From: Bacillota bacterium
GTDB lineage: Bacteria > Bacillota > Sulfobacillia > Sulfobacillales > Sulfobacillaceae
Length of the DNA: 40,616 nt
Direction: 5' to 3'
NCBI GenBank assembly: GCA_021795465.1
Contig: JAJYPK010000011.1
Span: forward strand, 1-40,616
Numbering within the stretch: the first letter of the stretch is position 1; each line of letters opens with the position of its first letter. Positions 29,975-40,616 of this stretch are shown here, piece after piece. Both the position numbers and the translations under genes were made by a program. The notes under the pieces were generated by a model, which worked only from the letters and a program-made list of their open reading frames with translations, was not told the DNA's origin and did no database searches.

Positions 29975-31003
29975 CTACATTTCCACAAGAACCTTAAGGT
30001 CACTGCGGGAACCGTCCAGCAGTTGGCGAAAAGTTTGTGGCACCGATTCAAATCCGACCTTGCGAGTCACCAGGTCTAAAACCTGCAGACCCTTGGGTCG
30101 ACTTATTAGTTGGATTGCACGCTCAAAGTCTTGGACTTGATACATGAGCGTACCCACCAGTTGCAACTCTCGATCTTGAATGAAAATCGCATCCATTAGA
30201 AGAGGCCCTTCGGGAACCCCGACCAGGACAATGGCGCTCCCTTTTCGGGCTATGCGCAACGCCAAGTTGACCGTACTGGGCTTGGCCACACAGTCGAACA
30301 CTGCATCGGAACCCTGGGGATATACCGCTTGCAACTTATGCTCCCGGTCGGGGTCCTCGCTATGAATCACGGAGTCGATGCCAAGGCGCCGAGCCATGGC
30401 CAACCGATCCGGCCGAATGTCCATAATTGTCACCGGTCCGACGGCATAGGCCTGGGCGACCAATGCCGTAATCATGCCAATGGGGCCAGCGCCCATCACG
30501 ACCACCCCCGCTTGATGAAGAGGTGTTCGACCTAGAGCATGGATGGCCACCGCAGTCGGTTCGACTAACGCGGCTTCGGCCAAGCTCATGCTCGGAGGAA
30601 TCTTGAGCAGACGGTCGGTAGGTACATCAATGTAGCGCGCCAACGCCCCCGCGATTCCGATATTGCCGATAATTTGGAGGTGCTCGCAGATGTGTTCGTT
30701 CCCCTGTCGGCACGGATAACAGTCGCCACACGGGACGGATGGCACCACCACCACCGATTTACCGACCCAGGCTCTATCCGCTTCGTCTCCTACCTCGGTC
30801 ACGATGCCGCTAAATTCGTGTCCGAGCACGATCGGAGGATGCACATTGGGGTGTAATCCTTGATAGGAATGCAGATCCGATCCACAGATTCCGCAATACG
30901 CCGTCTTGACACGCGCCCAATGCGGGCGCACATCTCCCAAATTTGACGCTTCCCAGGCAAATGTTTCGCGCCCTGTTAGGACCCATGCGACATTTTCGGT
31001 CAT
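29975..31003 (-). CDS. Zinc-dependent alcohol/polyol dehydrogenase (MDR family), first in operon
   Basis: A 342-residue medium-chain dehydrogenase resembling L-iditol/sorbitol and galactitol-1-phosphate dehydrogenases. The catalytic zinc site is C40 (CGICGSD), H62 and E63 (LGHEF). The structural lobe is C92-C95-C98-C106 with VPSVPCGDCYPCRQG around it. The cofactor motif VMGAGPIGMI lies near residue 170. The start codon at 31001-31003 uses GGAAGGA located inside the end of the upstream kinase gene, only four bases away, so the two are tightly linked. It would oxidise an alcohol group of the imported polyol to a ketose. Confidence 0.88.
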   Translation of the reverse strand: MTENVAWVLTGRETFAWEASNLGDVRPHWARVKTAYCGICGSDLHSYQGLHPNVHPPIVLGHEFSGIVTEVGDEADRAWVGKSVVVVPSVPCGDCYPCRQGNEHICEHLQIIGNIGIAGALARYIDVPTDRLLKIPPSMSLAEAALVEPTAVAIHALGRTPLHQAGVVVMGAGPIGMITALVAQAYAVGPVTIMDIRPDRLAMARRLGIDSVIHSEDPDREHKLQAVYPQGSDAVFDCVAKPSTVNLALRIARKGSAIVLVGVPEGPLLMDAIFIQDRELQLVGTLMYQVQDFERAIQLISRPKGLQVLDLVTRKVGFESVPQTFRQLLDGSRSDLKVLVEM

Positions 31004-31007
31004 GCCT

Positions 31008-32408
31008 TCATTCCTTCCCCCGCCAATTGGCTAGAAATTCGTCAAACACTCTATTGTAATAGGACGCGCGGCTTGAATCCGGATTGACCGTGTGTCGGGC
31101 AATCGCTAGGTTCTCTCTGCCGGTTAAGGATTTCCGGGCGATTTGCGCGGCCCCCAACGCCACAATTTCCGTGCCTCGAACCGCATACACCGGTCGTTGC
31201 AAAATATCCGCCTTTAATCGGAGCGAAAGCGGAGTTGCCCCTCCCCCAATCACGACCAGGGCCGGATCGACCGATGCTGCCCCCGGTATATGCTCGAGCG
31301 CCCAGCGTATCACCATGGCGCTCGAAACCAGTGCGGCCAGCATGATATCCTCCGAGGTGGTGCCAGGTGTGAGCCCTCGAATATCAAAACCCGGCTTTTC
31401 CCCGAGATGGTTAGGCATCACAAGCAGAGAAGGTTCTGGTATTGCTGTCGTCGGCGCGCCGCTGAGACGGCCAAGGTCCACGGCAAAGAGTCGACTGAGG
31501 GTCGTCGTCATCATGCCGGTATACGTGCCACTCGCGATGTAATAGGGACCCGATGGGTATCCGGTATATCCATATTCGAATGCTCCTTGCATGCTGACTC
31601 CAGACAACGTCGCCACCGGCCAATAGAGGAGTTCCGCGGTCCCCATCGAATCAAGCATCGCAGAAGAATCTACAACGCCCGCGCCAATGGCTCCCACCGG
31701 ATGATCGTGTCCCCCGACCACGACGGCTACATCTGGGCCGAGACCCCAATCTTGGGCCGACGTCCCCGTATAGCCTAGTATCTTGCCCGAGGGGACAATG
31801 GGCGGTAATTGCTTGACCCCATCCGGCAGGACTTCTTGCACCCAAGACGTGATCCAGTCGCGGTGTGCCGGATCAAACACGTAGGTACGCGCGGCTTGTG
31901 AATAACTGATACATAACTGACCCGTAAGCAGGAATCCAATGTACTCGCTGACGGGGACCCACATGCGGATACGGTCCCATAAGCCTGGAATGGTGTCTTT
32001 CATCCACAGCCATTTGAAGAGCGAATAGCTAGGCTTCGCCACAAGTCCGGTCCGAACCCTGGCATCCGGATGGCGCGTGCGCCAGTCCTCGTGACTGGCG
32101 GTCATTCGATGTTCAAACCAGGCGATGGCAGGATAGATGGGAATGCCGTAATCATCGAGAAAAAATCCCTCTTCCCCGATACTGGCCACCGATAGGCCTT
32201 GGATTGTCGCATCACCGACCTGGCTTACGACTGCTTTAGTGATGTTCTTAGCCGCAATGACTAAGGCATCCGCTTCATGGACCACACCCCAGGAATCGGT
32301 GCTCACGGGGGTATCGGTCGCACTTTGCGCGAGGATCTCGCCCGCTTCGTTCACGATTATCGCCTTCATGTGCGTGGTACCAATGTCTAGCCCTAGATAG
32401 GCATTCAC
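31008..32408 (-). CDS. FGGY-family carbohydrate kinase (gluconokinase/ketose kinase-like)
   Basis: A 466-residue second FGGY kinase. It starts LGLDIGTTHMKAIIVNEAGE (nucleotide motif) and carries GLSVASIGEEGFFLDDYG, AIAWFEHR, VVVGGHDHPVGAIGAG and the C-terminal VIGGGATPLSLRLKADIL. It is clearly diverged from the xylulokinase-type kinase in the same operon, and the EEG and HDHP segments resemble less well characterised members. The start is GTG at 32406-32408, overlapping the PfkB gene stop (GTGA). Possible substrates are a ketose or a polyol. The sequence does not decide between them. Confidence 0.85.
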   Translation of the reverse strand: MNAYLGLDIGTTHMKAIIVNEAGEILAQSATDTPVSTDSWGVVHEADALVIAAKNITKAVVSQVGDATIQGLSVASIGEEGFFLDDYGIPIYPAIAWFEHRMTASHEDWRTRHPDARVRTGLVAKPSYSLFKWLWMKDTIPGLWDRIRMWVPVSEYIGFLLTGQLCISYSQAARTYVFDPAHRDWITSWVQEVLPDGVKQLPPIVPSGKILGYTGTSAQDWGLGPDVAVVVGGHDHPVGAIGAGVVDSSAMLDSMGTAELLYWPVATLSGVSMQGAFEYGYTGYPSGPYYIASGTYTGMMTTTLSRLFAVDLGRLSGAPTTAIPEPSLLVMPNHLGEKPGFDIRGLTPGTTSEDIMLAALVSSAMVIRWALEHIPGAASVDPALVVIGGGATPLSLRLKADILQRPVYAVRGTEIVALGAAQIARKSLTGRENLAIARHTVNPDSSRASYYNRVFDEFLANWRGKE

Positions 32409-33394
32409 AAGAATTTCTCCACTTCAACCAACACGTTCACCGCCACGGATCGGGCCAAATCTCGAATGGCCTCTCTCTTTTCTATCTCGGGGAAAATATT
32501 CATCGCATTGCTAGAGGCCGCGGCGGCACCGCAGCAGAGCGCCTCGCGATAGTCTTGGGATTCCGCAAACTCCCCTACAAACCCCGCCAAAAATGCATCG
32601 CCGGATCCCACTGCATTCCGCACCCTAATCGGCAATGAGGCCACCGTCCAATAGCCGTCATGGGTCCACGCCGCCGCCCCTTCCTGGCCATTGGTAACCA
32701 CCACATTGGTGCCCTGCTTTTCGAGGGCGGCACAGAGTGGTGCAATCGACCCATACCAGGTCTGCGGGTTGTCAGCCAGCGGAACCCCGTACGCAGTGGT
32801 TAAGTCGAGGGCAATCTCCATAAATTCAGCCAGGTTAACCTTAACCAACCAGGGACGCTTCGCGACGGCTAACGTGAGTGACGTCCCGGTGGCATCCACT
32901 ACGGTACGAACTTTTTCCCCCTGGGCCTGTTCGACAAGCCTTGCGTAAAAATCTGGCGGGGTGCCGGGCGGGAGGCTCCCTGTAAGCACCAGATATTCGG
33001 CATCCGGGCTTTGGTCGTGGATCCGATCCGCCAGGACAGCAAGCTCATCCCGGGTAATCTGGGGTCCCACCGAGTTTACTACGGTTGACGCCCCGTTTTC
33101 GGGCGTCACGAAGACGTCACAAATCCGTGAGGAGTCCTTAATGGTCACCACTGAACAGAGGCTCCCGACACCCTCATGGTTCAAGAGTTCATGGATGATG
33201 CGCCCCGTCAGATTTCCCACGGCAGTAATGGCATGCGCCGGTATTCCTAGGGTATTCATCATCTTTAAGACATTGAGCCCTTTACCGCCGCTGACCCACC
33301 GCTCTTGGTGCACCCGGTTCACAGCGCCTAGGGTGAAGTCATCTAACACCAGGATGCGGTCGAGCGATGTATTAAGGGACAGAATCAGTATCAA
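32405..33394 (-). CDS. PfkB-family sugar-phosphate kinase (1-phosphofructokinase / tagatose-6-phosphate kinase type)
   Basis: A 329-residue PfkB/ribokinase-family kinase of the FruK/LacC branch. It begins LSLNTSLDRIL. The N-terminal substrate motif is SGGKGLNVLKMMNTLG (35-50), LTGSLPPGTPPDFYARL lies near 137, and the C-terminal signature NAVGSGDAFLAGFVGE contains the catalytic D266. It would phosphorylate fructose-1-phosphate or tagatose-6-phosphate to the 1,6-bisphosphate, the substrate of the class II aldolase encoded downstream. The start is TTG at 33392-33394, supported by AGGAGG seven bases upstream. It overlaps the next kinase gene by four bases. Confidence 0.88.
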   Translation of the reverse strand: MILILSLNTSLDRILVLDDFTLGAVNRVHQERWVSGGKGLNVLKMMNTLGIPAHAITAVGNLTGRIIHELLNHEGVGSLCSVVTIKDSSRICDVFVTPENGASTVVNSVGPQITRDELAVLADRIHDQSPDAEYLVLTGSLPPGTPPDFYARLVEQAQGEKVRTVVDATGTSLTLAVAKRPWLVKVNLAEFMEIALDLTTAYGVPLADNPQTWYGSIAPLCAALEKQGTNVVVTNGQEGAAAWTHDGYWTVASLPIRVRNAVGSGDAFLAGFVGEFAESQDYREALCCGAAAASSNAMNIFPEIEKREAIRDLARSVAVNVLVEVEKFL

Positions 33395-33406
33395 AAGAAC
33401 CCCTCC

Positions 33407-34225
33407 TCATTTAACGGCGCCAGCCGTTAGCCCCCGGACGATGTGTCGCTGAGCATATAGCCCCAAAACAATCGGGACCACCCCGATCAAGACCCCTAAT
33501 GCGGACACTTTAGCGAGGAATAGGCTTTCACTGCTCATAAACGACGACATCATAATGGGCAGAGTGGTCGACTTGGTAAAAGTTAGGTTGACCGCGAAGA
33601 AAAAATCATTCCACGAGAAGATTATCGCTAAGAGTGCGGATGCCGTGAGGCCCGATGAGGAAAGCGGCACCGCAACCCGTAACAAGGTTTGATACGGGGT
33701 GCATCCGTCAATCCGCGCCGCTTCAATAATGCCCACCGGCAGGTCCATAAAGTACGACCGCGCCATCCAAATGATGAGGGGTACATTCATCGCTGTGTAC
33801 ACGATGATAAGACTTTGCAGGGTATCGAGCAGATGAAGATGCAAAAAGATGATATACAGAGGAACAATAATCGCTGCAAAGGGCATGAACCGTGTGGACA
33901 AGACGAAGAACAGCATATTTTTCGAGGCTTTCTTAGGTAAGTGAAACACCATGGCGTAGGCCGCCGGAATCCCCAAGACAATGGCAATTGCGGTCGACAC
34001 CAGCGAGGCGGTGACGCTGTGACCTAGATAAAACAAAAAGTTAGAATGCCAGGCGAGTGCGAATTGGGTCAAGGTTGGCTTGAAAAGCAACGATGGCGTA
34101 GACGAATAAGCCGCTCGTTCCGTCTTGAGTCCCGTCAACAGCATCCAAATGGCGGGAAAAATGAAGAGAATAACGATGAAATATGTGACCGATGTGAGAA
34201 TAGATGCTTTCCACCGCACCCGCAT
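33407..34225 (-). CDS. ABC transporter permease (MalG/SmoG type)
   Basis: A 272-residue CUT1-family permease with six membrane helices. The EAA loop GIIEAARIDGCTPYQTLLRV lies near residues 160-180, and the C-terminus ends RHIVRGLTAGAVK. The chosen ATG (34223-34225) sits one base after the stop of the preceding permease gene and uses AGGGAGTTG from that gene's end. The longer frame to 34303 overlaps the neighbour by 77 bases and is rejected. It pairs with the upstream permease. With polyol dehydrogenases downstream, a mannitol/sorbitol-type importer is the likely role. Confidence 0.88.
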   Translation of the reverse strand: MRVRWKASILTSVTYFIVILFIFPAIWMLLTGLKTERAAYSSTPSLLFKPTLTQFALAWHSNFLFYLGHSVTASLVSTAIAIVLGIPAAYAMVFHLPKKASKNMLFFVLSTRFMPFAAIIVPLYIIFLHLHLLDTLQSLIIVYTAMNVPLIIWMARSYFMDLPVGIIEAARIDGCTPYQTLLRVAVPLSSSGLTASALLAIIFSWNDFFFAVNLTFTKSTTLPIMMSSFMSSESLFLAKVSALGVLIGVVPIVLGLYAQRHIVRGLTAGAVK

Positions 34226-34226
34226 A

Positions 34227-35162
34227 TTATTCAACTCCCTCTGTTCCTTGGGCGAAATACCGCACCATAATTTGAGCAAAAACAATCGCCAAGATAACGC
34301 CAAAGACCCCTATCGCGGCCGCTTGTCCTACCTGCCAGTATTGAAACGCTACTTTGTATGTGTAGTAAGGTAGGGTGGTGGTTTGGATCCCCGGGCCACC
34401 GCCTGTCGCCAAATAGGTCTTGCCGAAGGTTTGGAAAATAAATATCGTCCCCAGGAGGATCGCCACCTCATAGTAGTGTTGCAGGTGTGGCAGCGTGATG
34501 CGCCACCAGACAGTCCAGCGTCGCGCACCATCGACTTGCGCTGCCTCCAGTACCTCGTCCGACACCGATTGCAACCCGGCAATGAGTACCAGTACGAAGA
34601 ATGGGGTCCATTGCCATGACGTCATAGCAATCATACTCAACATAGGGAACCGCGACAGCCACGGCACCGAGGCGCCTCCAAAAATCCTTACCACCCAGTC
34701 CAACAGGCCAAACGACGGGCTTAAGATCAGGTTCTTCCATACCACCGCACTGACTACCGGCGTGACCAAGAAAGGGATGAGGATCGCGGTTCTCAAAAGC
34801 GCCCGGCCTCGGAATTGGCGATGGAGCATCAAAGCTAATAAAGTCCCCAAGACCACCGATACGATAAGCGCCCCAAAGACCAGTTTAGCGGTATTCGCGA
34901 CGGACGGCCAAAAGGCCGGATCATGAAACAATTCATTGGCATAATTGCCAAACCAAATCAAGGGACGTCCAAGAGCCGGTTCCATGAGATTCCACGCGTG
35001 TAAGCTAATCCATAAGGCGTAAACAAAAGGTAACTGAGTAGCCAGCAGCAAAAACAACAGGGAGGGTAGATGCATGACGGTCCGTCGTTGGATAGACGCA
35101 CCAGCCTTGACTAAAGACCTTCCGACATTAGAGTTGTCTGACTTTGTTGACACTTGAGCCAT
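34227..35162 (-). CDS. ABC transporter permease (MalF/SmoF type)
   Basis: A 311-residue CUT1-family permease with an N-terminal basic segment and six membrane helices. The EAA loop is EVLEAAQVDGARRWTVWWRI near residues 200-219. LPSLLFLLLATQLPFVYALWISL forms the first helix region. The ATG at 35160-35162 has GGGAGG eight bases upstream. A TTG one codon earlier is less likely. It is 29 bases after the binding-protein gene and one base before the second permease. Resemblance to polyol (mannitol/sorbitol) permeases together with the operon context supports sugar-alcohol uptake. Confidence 0.88.
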   Translation of the reverse strand: MAQVSTKSDNSNVGRSLVKAGASIQRRTVMHLPSLLFLLLATQLPFVYALWISLHAWNLMEPALGRPLIWFGNYANELFHDPAFWPSVANTAKLVFGALIVSVVLGTLLALMLHRQFRGRALLRTAILIPFLVTPVVSAVVWKNLILSPSFGLLDWVVRIFGGASVPWLSRFPMLSMIAMTSWQWTPFFVLVLIAGLQSVSDEVLEAAQVDGARRWTVWWRITLPHLQHYYEVAILLGTIFIFQTFGKTYLATGGGPGIQTTTLPYYTYKVAFQYWQVGQAAAIGVFGVILAIVFAQIMVRYFAQGTEGVE

Positions 35163-35191
35163 CAAGCAGTCCTCCCTGTGATATTGCCTTG

Positions 35192-36559
35192 TTAGAATCC
35201 TTTGGTGTTTTGCGCGTTAACAAGCGTTTTGGCTTGCTGTTGAGCTTGTTGCAGGGCGCTCTTGACACTAATCCGACCCGCAATGGCCGAAGACACATCT
35301 TGACTGACTTGGTCTCCAAGGGTAGAAAATTGAGGGATTTCCACGAACTGCACGCCCGTGTAGGGGACCGGTTTTAAGGTCGGGCTGTCTGGTGTCGCGG
35401 TGTCGATCGATTTCAAGGTAATATGCGCAAACGGTGCCGCCTTCTGATAGTGCGGATTGCTGTAAATCGAGTACCGCGTGCCGGGAGGAACATTGGCCCA
35501 TCCAAAGGTTTTCCCGGCCAGTGTCAAGTATTGGGGACTGGTGGCCCAGGTCATGAATTTGAACGCAGCGTTAGGATGCGGACTGTTCTTTACCATGGCG
35601 AGTGCCCAAGACCACAACCAATGACTCCCATGGGACGTCTTGGCAACCGGTGCATAGGCAAATCCCACATTGCCCGCGATAGACGATTGCGAGGGTGTTT
35701 CTAAGACCCCCGCTTCCGAAGTAGCATCGTAATACATTGCCGCTTTTCCGTGCGACATAAGGCTTAGAGCCGTCTGCCATCCCGTCGTGGCCGGTGAGGG
35801 TTCTCCGTACTTTTGCAATAGGTTGGTGTAAAATGATACAGCCTGGTTAACCGCCGGGCTGGTCAATCGAGGTTGCCAGTGCCGGTTAAACCATCGACCC
35901 CCGAAGGTATTGATCACCGTATCCAATGGCGCTAAATTCATCCCCCAGCCGGATTGGCCACGCAACACGATGCCAGCGATACCCTGACTCGGGTTATTGG
36001 CTTTCCTGGCCAATGTCTGGATTTGGGCCCAGGTCGGATGCAAAGGCATAACTAAGTGATCTTTCTTAAAGATCGCCTTGTTGTACATGATCATACTGCT
36101 TTCTGCATAGAACGGCACCGCATAGGTGCTATGGTTATATTGGAGTGACTGCATCACCGGCTTGATTAAGTCACTGTACTTATACGAGGCCTTGGCATTG
36201 GCGGACATGGCGTTAAACTTCGGTGTCAGGTTGGTAATCCACCCGTTTTTCGCCCAAATTGGCGTCTCATAGTTGCCAATCGTGACTAAATCAAACTGCC
36301 CGGAATTCGTGGCCACGTCTTCGGTAATTTTTGGACGCAATTGGTTTTCCGGCAAGGTATCGAACTTGACTTGGATATTTGGGTATTTCTTTTCGAATAC
36401 CTTCTTCGTCAATTGTTCCATTTGCACCATCTGGGAGTTGTTGACCGTCGCGACAGTCAACACAACCTTACCACCCGAGCCCGAGGTAGACGTACCGCAA
36501 CCGGCCAACCCCATTCCCACGAGGGACGTAGCCCCCATCAACGCAAGTACTTTCTTCAT
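35192..36559 (-). CDS. ABC transporter substrate-binding lipoprotein (polyol/sugar type)
   Basis: A 455-residue solute-binding protein with a short lipoprotein signal ending LAGC (cysteine at about residue 21). The mature domain starts with KVVLTVATVNNSQMV, and the PFYAESSMIMYNKAIFKK segment is the typical hinge of sugar and polyol binders. The C-terminus is rich in Gln and Ala. It is the first gene of the operon running to 25530, so it would set the substrate of the whole pathway. The ATG at 36557-36559 has AAAGGAG about ten bases upstream. The DeoR-type regulator gene is divergent, 207 bases away. Confidence 0.88.
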   Translation of the reverse strand: MKKVLALMGATSLVGMGLAGCGTSTSGSGGKVVLTVATVNNSQMVQMEQLTKKVFEKKYPNIQVKFDTLPENQLRPKITEDVATNSGQFDLVTIGNYETPIWAKNGWITNLTPKFNAMSANAKASYKYSDLIKPVMQSLQYNHSTYAVPFYAESSMIMYNKAIFKKDHLVMPLHPTWAQIQTLARKANNPSQGIAGIVLRGQSGWGMNLAPLDTVINTFGGRWFNRHWQPRLTSPAVNQAVSFYTNLLQKYGEPSPATTGWQTALSLMSHGKAAMYYDATSEAGVLETPSQSSIAGNVGFAYAPVAKTSHGSHWLWSWALAMVKNSPHPNAAFKFMTWATSPQYLTLAGKTFGWANVPPGTRYSIYSNPHYQKAAPFAHITLKSIDTATPDSPTLKPVPYTGVQFVEIPQFSTLGDQVSQDVSSAIAGRISVKSALQQAQQQAKTLVNAQNTKGF

Positions 36560-36650
36560 GACATTCTTACTCCTTTCGGGGTTACCAAGTTCACTGTAAA
36601 CTCATACAATTCCCTTACATTGGTATCCTGTCATTCATTTTCTACGATGT

Positions 36651-36708
36651 CAATATATTACCAACCAATTATATTGGTTTTCCGGCTTAAAACCAAGTGG
36701 TAATATTG
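36651..36708. promoter_or_regulatory. Overlapping palindromes in the divergent promoter region (candidate DeoR operators)
   Basis: Three inverted repeats are nested here. AACCAAT-TAT-ATTGGTT spans 36663-36679, covering the operon's -10 box. TTGGTTTT-N7-AAAACCAA spans 36674-36696, covering the spacer and -35 box. An outer pair, CAATATATTACCA (36651-36663) and TGGTAATATTG (36698-36708), matches except for a two-base insertion. Their position on the promoter suggests repression by the divergent DeoR-family protein. The link to that protein is inferred. Confidence 0.55.
36668..36696 (-). promoter_or_regulatory. Promoter of the polyol operon
   Basis: On the minus strand TTGGTT (36691-36696) and a perfect TATAAT (36668-36673) are separated by exactly 17 bases. 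Transcription would begin near 36661, about 100 bases before the binding-protein start codon. An alternative TTGACA downstream on the same strand lacks a good -10 box. Confidence 0.6.
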
Positions 36709-36732
36709 TCATAAATAATTTCACCGTTGTTC

Positions 36733-36738
36733 TATAAT
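36733..36738 (+). promoter_or_regulatory. -10 box of the DeoR-type regulator gene
   Basis: A perfect TATAAT lies 28 bases upstream of the start codon. No good -35 box occurs 16-18 bases before it. A TTGTCA is present but 21 bases away, so the promoter may be weak or need help. Confidence 0.4.
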
Positions 36739-36766
36739 CGGGGTATCACCCCAGGAGGATCGAGAA

Positions 36767-37522
36767 ATGGTAGACGAGAGGCGTCGCGAGTTAGCCCAAC
36801 GACTAGTCCAAGACGGAAAGCTCGTGGTTAAAGACTTGGCTTTGCAGTATGATGTGACGACGGAAACGATTCGCAAGGACATCACGCATCTAGAAAAGAT
36901 GGGCGTGGCCAAAAAAACTCATGGCGGGGCCATCTATGTCAACGATCTGCGAGAGTTACCCTACTCAGAAACCAGCACCCTCCATCGGTCCCAAAAGGCC
37001 GCCATTGCCCGCGTGGCCGTCTCGTTAATTGGTCGGCATGTCACCATGCTCGACGGCGGCAGTACCAATTTAGCCATTGCCAAGCTATTGTCCTTGCGCG
37101 CCGACATCACGGTGGTCACGAACTCGCTGAGCATTGTCCCGGTCTTAGCCAGCGCGCCCGGGGTGACTTTGGTGATGACGGGGGGCGAAGTCCGCCAGAT
37201 CAGCCAAGATCTTGTGGGATATTGGGCAACCCGATCCGTCCATGAGGTCGCCAGCGACGTATGCTTTGTCGGCGCCAACAGTATCGCGCAATTTTCAGGT
37301 CCATCCACGTCCACGATGCAAGAGGTGGAAATCAAACGCTCGATGCTGGAAGCTTCCCGCTCGCGATATCTCGTGGTCGATTCGTCAAAAACCGGGTCGC
37401 TGAGTACCTTCCAGTTTGCTGAGTGGCGAGAATTTACAGCGATCATCACCGACTCCGGGATTGATTCTCATTTTGTTGACAATGTTGCTCCATACACGAA
37501 GGTCCTGATTGCCGAAGACTAA
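36767..37522 (+). CDS. DeoR-family transcriptional regulator
   Basis: A 251-residue regulator. The N-terminal DeoR helix-turn-helix (about residues 3-57) contains VKDLALQYDVTTETIRKDITH and the HGGAIY wing. The C-terminal DeoR effector domain shows MLDGGSTNLAIAKLL, VVTNSL and MTGGEVR, then DVCFVGANSI and VDSSKTG, the usual phosphosugar-binding segments. Such regulators normally repress sugar or polyol operons and are released by a phosphorylated sugar. It is divergent from the polyol operon, with palindromes between them, so it is the likely local repressor. The ATG follows AGGAGG by eight bases. Confidence 0.92.
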   Translation: MVDERRRELAQRLVQDGKLVVKDLALQYDVTTETIRKDITHLEKMGVAKKTHGGAIYVNDLRELPYSETSTLHRSQKAAIARVAVSLIGRHVTMLDGGSTNLAIAKLLSLRADITVVTNSLSIVPVLASAPGVTLVMTGGEVRQISQDLVGYWATRSVHEVASDVCFVGANSIAQFSGPSTSTMQEVEIKRSMLEASRSRYLVVDSSKTGSLSTFQFAEWREFTAIITDSGIDSHFVDNVAPYTKVLIAED

Positions 37523-38383: not shown

Positions 38384-40609
38384 TCAATGCACAAATGCCC
38401 ACCGTAGTGCCTGAGATGCGTTAGAGACAGGGACCCAATGAATCTTGCCAAAGGTTTCGACAAAGGTTTCCTCCAACAGCTCGATGGGACTTCCTTCTGG
38501 CAGTACGATAGTCTGGCGCCCTCGATTCAAAGCCGCCATCACCAATGCGACGATTTCCGCTGGCGCAATGACATCCCCGGCAAGCGTCAATCCTCCAATC
38601 ACGGCTAATGAGGATGCCAGAGGCTTTCGCAACCAGGTTGAGACCACCGCCATCACCAGTCCCAGTTCACCTCGCCCCTTAAGGTCACCAGGACCGCCGG
38701 TCCATTGCACACCTAACCCCTCCCAGCGTACCGCATTATCGAGGCCCAACCGATGCCCGTGAGAACTTAAAAAGAACTCGGCCACACGAAAGACCGCCTC
38801 CCCACCGCGCAAGCCATCGTCTGAAAACACCCGTGGTCTATGGGGACTTCTCTCGGCCATCACGACCTGCACTATAGCGACTTCGGTGCTCACCGTTCCA
38901 CTTGCCGGGTCAACCTCTGCCACCACGGTCGTGCATTCCCCTGGCCGCGGTGCCTGATTCAATTGCCGGTCGATGGGGGTTTCAATGCGTGTGCGCCCAT
39001 CGCTTCGTACCGATATTCCCTGATACGCTACGGGATACGGGGCGAACTCGCCCGGTTCCATCTTGATGAGTTGTTCATGGACACGCTGTCGTGACTCGGC
39101 CGCCATCCCCAAAAGGTCTTCAGCAACCGTGGTATCAATCACGCCATCGGGAAATACGAGTTTGAACAAAGCCCGACCGAGTCGGTCCAAAGCCGTGACG
39201 TCGCGTCGAGTCAGGTTGGAGGGTAGCGGCCAACGTTTTTGGATCCCCTCCCATACATCGTCATAGGGCCAATCACGGAGAGCCAACAACACTTCGCCGA
39301 AGTAATCAGACGCCAAGGATTGCGCTGGTTCGAGAGACTCGGGCGTCAATTTAGGAAATTCCCAGCCCGGGATGAATCCGTGTAAACGATCCAACACCGC
39401 AGTCTCTTGCAGTCCTCGTGGCAAGACCTCAAAGAGATGCCGATAGCGGGCCGAGGGGTGCCGTCCTTCAACCTCTAAGTTACCAAGAAAAACCAGCGAG
39501 GTGTCCGCGCCGTAGGAGGCGCGACCCCGAGAAAATTGCCCACTCTCCATATAGTCTTTTAAGAGGCTTAACGTGGCCGGGTTATGGCTAAACTGCACCC
39601 GTGAAACCTCGTCGAAAATGATCACCCGACGGCTTTGAATAAGGCCGGGGCGTCCCGTCGTTAGGTTCACAAAGAGGTTGGCGGGCGTCGATCCACCCCC
39701 AGCCACAGTAAATGCATACGGAGATAGATTGCGGAGTAAGTGTGTCTTACCGGTATTCTTTGGCCCTAATTCAAGAAGATTGACGTTCCTTTCGACCAAA
39801 GGGATTAATCGCAGAAGGTATAATCGAGTCAGGCGCTTTCCGTCTGGTCGATCCCGTATCCATTCCGGATTATATCCAGCGGCAGCCAGCAATATATCGA
39901 TCCATTCCTCGGTGGAAAAGTGTTGACGAGCCTTGACAAAACGTTCGACATCGACTGACGCCTGGTAAGGTTCAAACATCGTAATAATGGGACGATGCTG
40001 AGAAAACCACGCCGCACCATCGTCCTCCGAAAGCATCTCTTCATCTTCGTCTTCATCTATCGAGATGGGTACCGCGAGCGCTTCGCCGGGAGTGAGGACC
40101 GCCTGGGACAATCGGCTCACCCTAACCCGGCCCCAAAGGCCACCACTAAGCAAATCTGGGAACTCGTTCAGAATGGATGCTTGCACGGTAAAGGCGTGCT
40201 GAAATGCGACGAGATTTCCCGTGGTCTCTCCCGACTCGATATCGATCGAAACTTCGAGATAATCCAATAGGTCCACGGCACCATCATTCACCAGTTTATA
40301 TTTTAATATCTGCCGATTGCGCGTCGTAGGGAAGTGAGCCTCCACGATCCGACTGGCATCAGCCATGCCATAGAGGCCGAGGAGATATTCCGATAAGAAG
40401 TCCGGCAGTTGACCGCCGAGGCGGGCATGAGGGCTCGTCCGTCGATCTCGCATGACTTGGCCAAAGAGCCGACGCGCCTTGTCTTCTACACTGCCCCCCG
40501 AGCCTAACATCGACTCCACGATCTCTCCTCCGTTATTCAAAAAGTGGGCGACGCGCGATGAGTTCCGCTTCGTCGGTGTCCCGATCGACCTCTTCTGAGA
40601 GGTCGACAT
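38384..40609 (-). CDS. brxL: BrxL-type AAA+ protein with Lon-like C-terminal domain (BREX phage defence); 5' end may lie outside the window
   Basis: A 741-residue protein counted from the ATG at 40607-40609. The N-terminal part has FLSEYLLGLYG near residue 71, the BrxL pattern. An acidic linker covers 185-197. The AAA+ core shows AAAGYNPEW, LIPLVERNVNLLELGPKNTGKTHLL (Walker A 282-289), NLFVNLTTGRPGLI, FDEV (Walker B, 332-335) and KDYMESGQFSRG. The last 130 residues resemble the Lon protease domain, but the catalytic Ser and Lys positions (KGRGELG 644-650; IAPAEI 681-686) seem substituted. BrxL is often the last gene of BREX loci, so the remaining genes may lie to the right. No ribosome-binding site is visible before this ATG, and the frame is open to the edge, so the true start may be upstream. 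Confidence 0.88.
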   Translation of the reverse strand: MSTSQKRSIGTPTKRNSSRVAHFLNNGGEIVESMLGSGGSVEDKARRLFGQVMRDRRTSPHARLGGQLPDFLSEYLLGLYGMADASRIVEAHFPTTRNRQILKYKLVNDGAVDLLDYLEVSIDIESGETTGNLVAFQHAFTVQASILNEFPDLLSGGLWGRVRVSRLSQAVLTPGEALAVPISIDEDEDEEMLSEDDGAAWFSQHRPIITMFEPYQASVDVERFVKARQHFSTEEWIDILLAAAGYNPEWIRDRPDGKRLTRLYLLRLIPLVERNVNLLELGPKNTGKTHLLRNLSPYAFTVAGGGSTPANLFVNLTTGRPGLIQSRRVIIFDEVSRVQFSHNPATLSLLKDYMESGQFSRGRASYGADTSLVFLGNLEVEGRHPSARYRHLFEVLPRGLQETAVLDRLHGFIPGWEFPKLTPESLEPAQSLASDYFGEVLLALRDWPYDDVWEGIQKRWPLPSNLTRRDVTALDRLGRALFKLVFPDGVIDTTVAEDLLGMAAESRQRVHEQLIKMEPGEFAPYPVAYQGISVRSDGRTRIETPIDRQLNQAPRPGECTTVVAEVDPASGTVSTEVAIVQVVMAERSPHRPRVFSDDGLRGGEAVFRVAEFFLSSHGHRLGLDNAVRWEGLGVQWTGGPGDLKGRGELGLVMAVVSTWLRKPLASSLAVIGGLTLAGDVIAPAEIVALVMAALNRGRQTIVLPEGSPIELLEETFVETFGKIHWVPVSNASQALRWAFVH

Positions 40610-40616
40610 CTTTAAG

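Follow-up and report, generated by a model that had tools for sequence, protein, structure and literature searches.

Which genes accompany the brxL gene that closes a 40,616-nucleotide contig of a Bacillota bacterium of the family Sulfobacillaceae, and do they make up a BREX phage-defense locus? The role of BrxL within BREX is unsettled, because BREX systems have many genes and only some of these systems need BrxL. A four-gene operon built on BrxL, with no methyltransferase, PglZ or BrxC, would allow the action of BrxL on invading DNA to be studied in reduced form, together with the way in which such a system distinguishes own from foreign DNA when there is no methyl mark to go by. An earlier note, made from the letters of the contig, had called the last right-hand gene BrxL-like, placed it at the end of a leftward operon, and expected brxC, pglX and pglZ just beyond base 40616; absence or replacement of those genes was to indicate a variant or stand-alone BrxL system. 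The whole contig, C218 of its genome, is called the window below.

BrxL is the product of the last open reading frame of the window (minus strand, 38384-40609). Its translation matches the Pfam models BrxL_ATPase (PF13337; 9e-93, 310.9 bits against a cut-off of 25) and BrxL_N (PF20442; 5e-12, 46.4 bits against a cut-off of 28.2), the BrxL model of PADLOC (2.8e-98) and the NCBIfam model TIGR02688 (337.7 bits, cut-off 329.3), and a family profile matches the solved BrxL structures 8EMC/8EMH over nearly the full length (E 2.8e-104). With curated cut-offs passed for both the N-terminal and the AAA+ domain, the protein is a member of the BrxL family, and all four sources agree with the assignment in the earlier note. 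The competing possibility that the note had named, a better match to another AAA+ or Lon family, did not materialize: no such family outscores BrxL on this reading frame, and true Lon families reach at most 21 bits. The ATPase motifs are intact in the sequence. The C-terminal part is Lon-like without being a Lon protease, as the catalytic Ser-Lys dyad is absent; in a profile alignment to solved Lon domains, read by eye, the dyad positions hold an Arg and a hydrophobic residue. A dyad-less, Lon-like tail is in line with earlier work on BrxL (PMC10164562; PMC12839542). The GTG codon at 40519 is the likely start of the gene, since GGAGG precedes it, it fits the N-termini of relatives, and the ATG at 40609 falls inside the 3' end of the upstream gene, designated D2. 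Neither a promoter nor a terminator pattern turned up in the stretch that separates brxL from the next gene. The genes to the left, at 29975-37522, resemble a cluster for sugar uptake and catabolism (ABC transporter, kinases, dehydrogenase, DeoR-type regulator); on that side, therefore, brxL does not border a defense island.

The sole other site in the genome that matches brxL is the end of contig C163 (3,494 bp; locus L003), which extends past the window edge. Window positions 40310-40616 overlap positions 3188-3494 of L003 with 304 of 307 bp identical; the three mismatches suggest strain variation in the assembly. Contig C163 contributes three genes, designated X, D1 and D2, which precede brxL in that order (Table 1). 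X and D1 overlap by 4 nt, D1 and D2 overlap by 7 nt, and the D2 stop lies 13 nt before the likely brxL start. Support for the join that is independent of the overlap comes from eight relatives (L026-L033, retrieved through BrxL), in which the same four genes occur in the same order on single contigs, with 47-69% identity per gene; the flanks of these loci are unlike one another. The gene brxL is thus the last gene of a leftward operon, as had been proposed, but the expected neighbors are not those found: none of X, D1 and D2 is BrxC, PglX or PglZ, and the data favor the fallback of a variant or stand-alone system. For the left end of C163 no overlapping contig was found, and the assembly stops upstream of X.

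Table 1. Features of the X-D1-D2-brxL operon and gene order of the CRISPR-linked X-D1-D2 loci. Positions are those of the window unless prefixed by L003, the locus on contig C163.
Feature	Position	Strand	Remarks
brxL, 711 aa	38384..40519	-	GTG 40519 is the likely start; the longest ORF extends to ATG 40609
BrxL N-terminal domain PF20442 (DNA-binding region in known BrxL)	40118..40417	-	residues 65-164 of the 741-aa ORF
BrxL AAA+ (MCM-like) ATPase domain PF13337	39041..39985	-	Walker A GPKNTGKT, Walker B FDEV (alignment columns)
Lon-like C-terminal domain without Ser-Lys dyad	38393..38662	-	PF05362 18.8 bits, below cut-off; profile alignment to Lon domains
D2, 3' end	40533..40616	-	rest on C163, L003:2042-3271; stop codon read; 307-bp overlap
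D2, 432 aa as longest ORF, 409 aa from likely start	L003:2042-3271		PF10923 1.7e-22
D1, 398 aa	L003:852-2048		PF10923 4.1e-23
X, 271 aa	L003:40-855		no match above cut-off
CRISPR-linked trio	L170		Cas10d, Cas7d, Cas3-like helicase, trio, Cas1
CRISPR-linked trio	L171		Cas3, Cas8a, Cas7, Cas5a, trio, Cas4
CRISPR-linked trio	L172		trio, Cas6
CRISPR-linked trio	L173		Cas8b, Cas7b, Cas3, trio, Cas1

If the assembly had cut through an ordinary BREX locus of Type 1 (or Type 4), only the 3' end of that locus would fall in the window. Such a locus would accord with the survey of BREX diversity in which BrxL is called specific to Types 1 and 4 (PMC12839542), and the genome does contain one PglZ fragment on another contig. 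That fragment, the sole match to PF08665 in the genome, is a 470-aa gene on contig C188 (L071, 1312-2724). It is truncated, matching the PglZ profile only from position 295 on, adjoins a transposase-like ORF, and is possibly a remnant of another system. Joining C188 to C163 was considered and rejected, as C188 has no 20-mer in common with C163 or the window. Relatives of this PglZ gene are missing from the L026-L033 loci, and PglZ is absent from six of the nine carriers in the family. Models for BrxC (NF033441) and for PglX, the BREX-1 methyltransferase (NF033452), found zero matches in the window's whole genome, which is rated 100% complete. The same searches found full BrxC in genome G057 and strong PglX matches in G012, G055 and G057, recovering both halves of the G057 protein. 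Because the genomes are mostly draft assemblies, absence of a gene is weaker evidence than presence. G057 has both arrangements, a canonical brxC-pglX-pglZ-brxL locus on contig C10 and, separately, X-D1-D2-brxL on C63. BrxP of BREX Type 4 (PAPS reductase/DUF4007) has no match in X, D1 or D2 by Pfam or PADLOC. With BrxC, PglX and PglZ all missing from it, the window operon is not BREX Type 1, and with BrxP unmatched in the three upstream genes it is not Type 4. The lack of PglZ in the locus also sets it apart from BREX of Types 1-6 in general. Since X, D1 and D2 occupy the upstream positions both in the overlapping contig and in the eight near relatives, the split-locus explanation is largely refuted, and we give it hardly any weight.

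Of 154 genomes of the class, 41 have X; in a sample of the phylum the figure is 15 among 398. Besides the window's own, 19 loci from seven families of the class have X-D1-D2-brxL, tightly packed and with unrelated flanks. In 18 of the 19, D2 and BrxL share a strand and lie -26 to +18 nt apart; the remaining case is an ORF-calling artefact. Pairwise identities of the four proteins across the 20 loci correlate with r of 0.92-0.97, to which shared species history contributes. The anatomy of the operon, meaning its gene content, order, tight spacing and conservation across families, is firm. One genome, G096, has X-D1-D2-brxL twice, on different contigs (L113, L114). A search of viral contigs yielded nothing beyond two distant relatives of BrxL (28-31%), and X was absent. 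In phage and plasmid collections the matches listed were all to BrxL, with identities of about 30% or lower; X was not found in plasmids, nor D2 in plasmids or phages.

The trio X-D1-D2 also occurs apart from brxL. The 51 trio loci examined comprise 20 with BrxL (that of the window's genome included), 5 with Shango, 4 with CRISPR-Cas, 16 with none of these and 6 cut by a contig end; BrxL loci were fetched partly through BrxL, so these counts are not frequencies. The five Shango-linked loci (L118, L119, L120, L125, L126) all belong to family f40, and in each the genes sngB and sngC, matched at 409 and 561 bits, come directly before X. Before sngB stands a gene (298 aa in L125) for which neither a TerB model nor any other gave a match. 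In four loci (L170-L173; Table 1) the trio sits on the same strand within a type I CRISPR-Cas locus of subtype I-D, I-A or I-B, placed between cas3 or cas5 on one side and cas1, cas4 or cas6 on the other. The D1 Walker A motif is kept in 46 of 50 loci, and the four exceptions, which lack the Walker A lysine, are exactly these CRISPR-linked ones. One further copy of X-D1-D2 adjoins a type I-C CRISPR locus, and another adjoins genes for SNF2 and DpdF-like helicases. Recurrence with Shango and with type I CRISPR-Cas suggests an accessory step common to defense systems.

In 16 trio loci the stretch fetched contains no BrxL, Shango or Cas genes; the trio may therefore work by itself or serve some other purpose. 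This leads to a different explanation, in which X-D1-D2 is a functional unit of its own, with a part in DNA repair, replication or the upkeep of the chromosome, and the genes of BrxL, Shango and CRISPR-Cas are chance neighbors in defense islands. The loss of the D1 Walker A motif in the CRISPR-linked clade fits such a role, as does locus L110 (3440-15063), where the trio lies on one strand between an SbcC-like gene and a gene for an SNF2 helicase with a SWIM finger. Chance adjacency accounts poorly, however, for the packing of D2 and BrxL within about 26 nt across seven families, for same-strand insertion into runs of cas genes of three subtypes, and for the patchy distribution of X in class and phylum. 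We consider this explanation unlikely.

D1 and D2 both match the Pfam model BrxC_BrxD (PF10923), and BrxD is the nearest named relative of each. Neither reaches the BrxD equivalog model NF033438, which requires at least 350 bits; D1 scores 82.3 and D2 scores 56.3. In D2, both Walker A and the Asp-Glu pair of Walker B are retained in all aligned loci where the region is present. In D1 an Asp-Glu pair at Walker B occurs in one locus only, and D1 proteins of BrxL-linked loci retain Walker A while lacking the Walker B glutamate. From these motifs, D1 is probably an ATP-binding, non-hydrolyzing partner of D2. Quick trees were built from mechanical gene calls. In the BrxL tree every X-linked BrxL falls on one side of a branch, with weak support (41). 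BrxL-linked D2 proteins had been expected to form a single clade, but on the D2 tree they do not: it takes four changes to account for the BrxL label there, and one for the Shango label. The four changes indicate that partners were swapped or lost several times.

Could the operon instead be a relative of Shango (SngA-SngB-SngC) in which BrxL replaces the SngC helicase? Both are compact operons that combine a BrxD-like ATPase with a DNA motor and have no modification gene, a similar trio adjoins sngB-sngC in family f40, where it follows these genes directly, and there is a weak match to SngB in D1 (38 bits) and in D2 (32 bits). The score of 409 bits for true SngB, however, belongs to a separate gene that co-occurs with D1 and D2; these two are not SngB. 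In addition, X matches no TerB model in Pfam or PADLOC, and the window operon lacks any TerB match and any SF2 helicase or SngC, having BrxL as its motor. We regard such a kinship with Shango as distinctly improbable. The operon, then, has a true BrxL, yet is not BREX Type 1 or 4, does not contain a BrxD equivalog, and is not Shango. We found no description of the X-D1-D2-brxL gene set in the open-licence literature, and it falls outside the range of contexts, Types 1 and 4, described for BrxL (PMC12839542).

Protein X has no match above cut-off in Pfam, PADLOC or NCBIfam. Against sequences of solved structures it finds mainly designed coiled coils and helical proteins. The AlphaFold model (mean pLDDT 79.7) contains a helical hairpin and a small alpha/beta part, and closes with a helix-and-hairpin part at the C terminus; X is predicted, with medium confidence of the model, to consist of a coiled coil, an alpha/beta middle and a helix-and-hairpin end. 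The C-terminal part, modeled with a mean pLDDT of 77.3, looks like a winged helix. Foldseek searches of solved and viral structures, with the whole of X and with its C-terminal part, gave no match at E of 0.001 or below, though X may nonetheless have a known fold; VIA Z values for the structure are in the range of common arrangements.

In the reading we prefer, and hold to be fairly probable, the gene at the window's end closes an operon of four genes, X-D1-D2-brxL, which is distinct from BREX and most likely directed against phage or other mobile DNA. We read this operon as a stand-alone BrxL system without methyltransferase, PglZ nuclease or BrxC scaffold. Genomic context makes the defense role itself quite likely. 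How the parts might work together is suggested by published studies. BrxL forms rings on DNA, requires ATP hydrolysis for restriction and resembles MCM, while BrxC and BrxB resemble ORC/DnaA; helicase activity of the studied BrxL was not demonstrated (PMC10164562). BrxD has been suggested as the loader of the helicase BrxHI in a 2026 survey (PMC12839542). By the same logic, and by way of these resemblances, D2 together with a probably non-hydrolyzing D1 could act like ORC/Cdc6 ATPases that load the MCM-like BrxL ring onto invading DNA or gate it, a mechanism we put forward tentatively. X would serve as an adaptor that targets or couples the complex, and the loaded ring would block or unwind incoming DNA so that replication of the invader fails. 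Because the operon has no modification gene linked to it, it would have to recognize DNA by structure or by replication state instead of by a methyl mark. The data establish the parts alone; how BrxL is loaded, what in the DNA gives the signal and what results are inferred. More broadly, X-D1-D2 may be a portable AAA+ module, an active and an inactive ORC/Cdc6-like ATPase with a new adaptor, that has become coupled to three unrelated defense systems, BrxL, Shango and type I CRISPR-Cas. It would act by loading or regulating the DNA motors of these systems, or else by sensing something that invading DNAs share, and with BrxL it would make a complete methylation-free defense system; we think this generalization somewhat less likely than not.

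Comparison with known systems places the operon among several without assigning it to any. It has in common with BREX Type 1 a full-length BrxL, including the dyad-less Lon-like tail, and the presence of ORC-like ATPases, but it has two short BrxC/D-family ATPases plus X where Type 1 has brxC, pglX and pglZ. The BrxD-BrxHI pair of BREX Type 2 likewise joins a stand-alone ORC/Cdc6-like ATPase of PF10923 to a DNA motor, whereas the motor here is BrxL rather than the SF2 helicase BrxHI, D1 and D2 are two divergent paralogs below the BrxD equivalog cut-off, and PglW, PglX, PglY and PglZ are lacking. The proposed plan of an initiator-type AAA+ loader with an MCM-like ring is that of archaeal and eukaryotic ORC-Cdc6 and MCM loading; the analogy is one of parts only, and as far as known the operon does not serve a replication origin.

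Other non-BREX contexts of BrxL, beyond X-D1-D2, may exist. BrxL relatives occur in Planctomycetota, at 33-39% identity, and in Thermus/Meiothermus (L034-L046 and L047-L050), where the neighbors checked match no PADLOC BREX model. In one of these loci, L040, an SMC-like gene of the LmuB type adjoins brxL.
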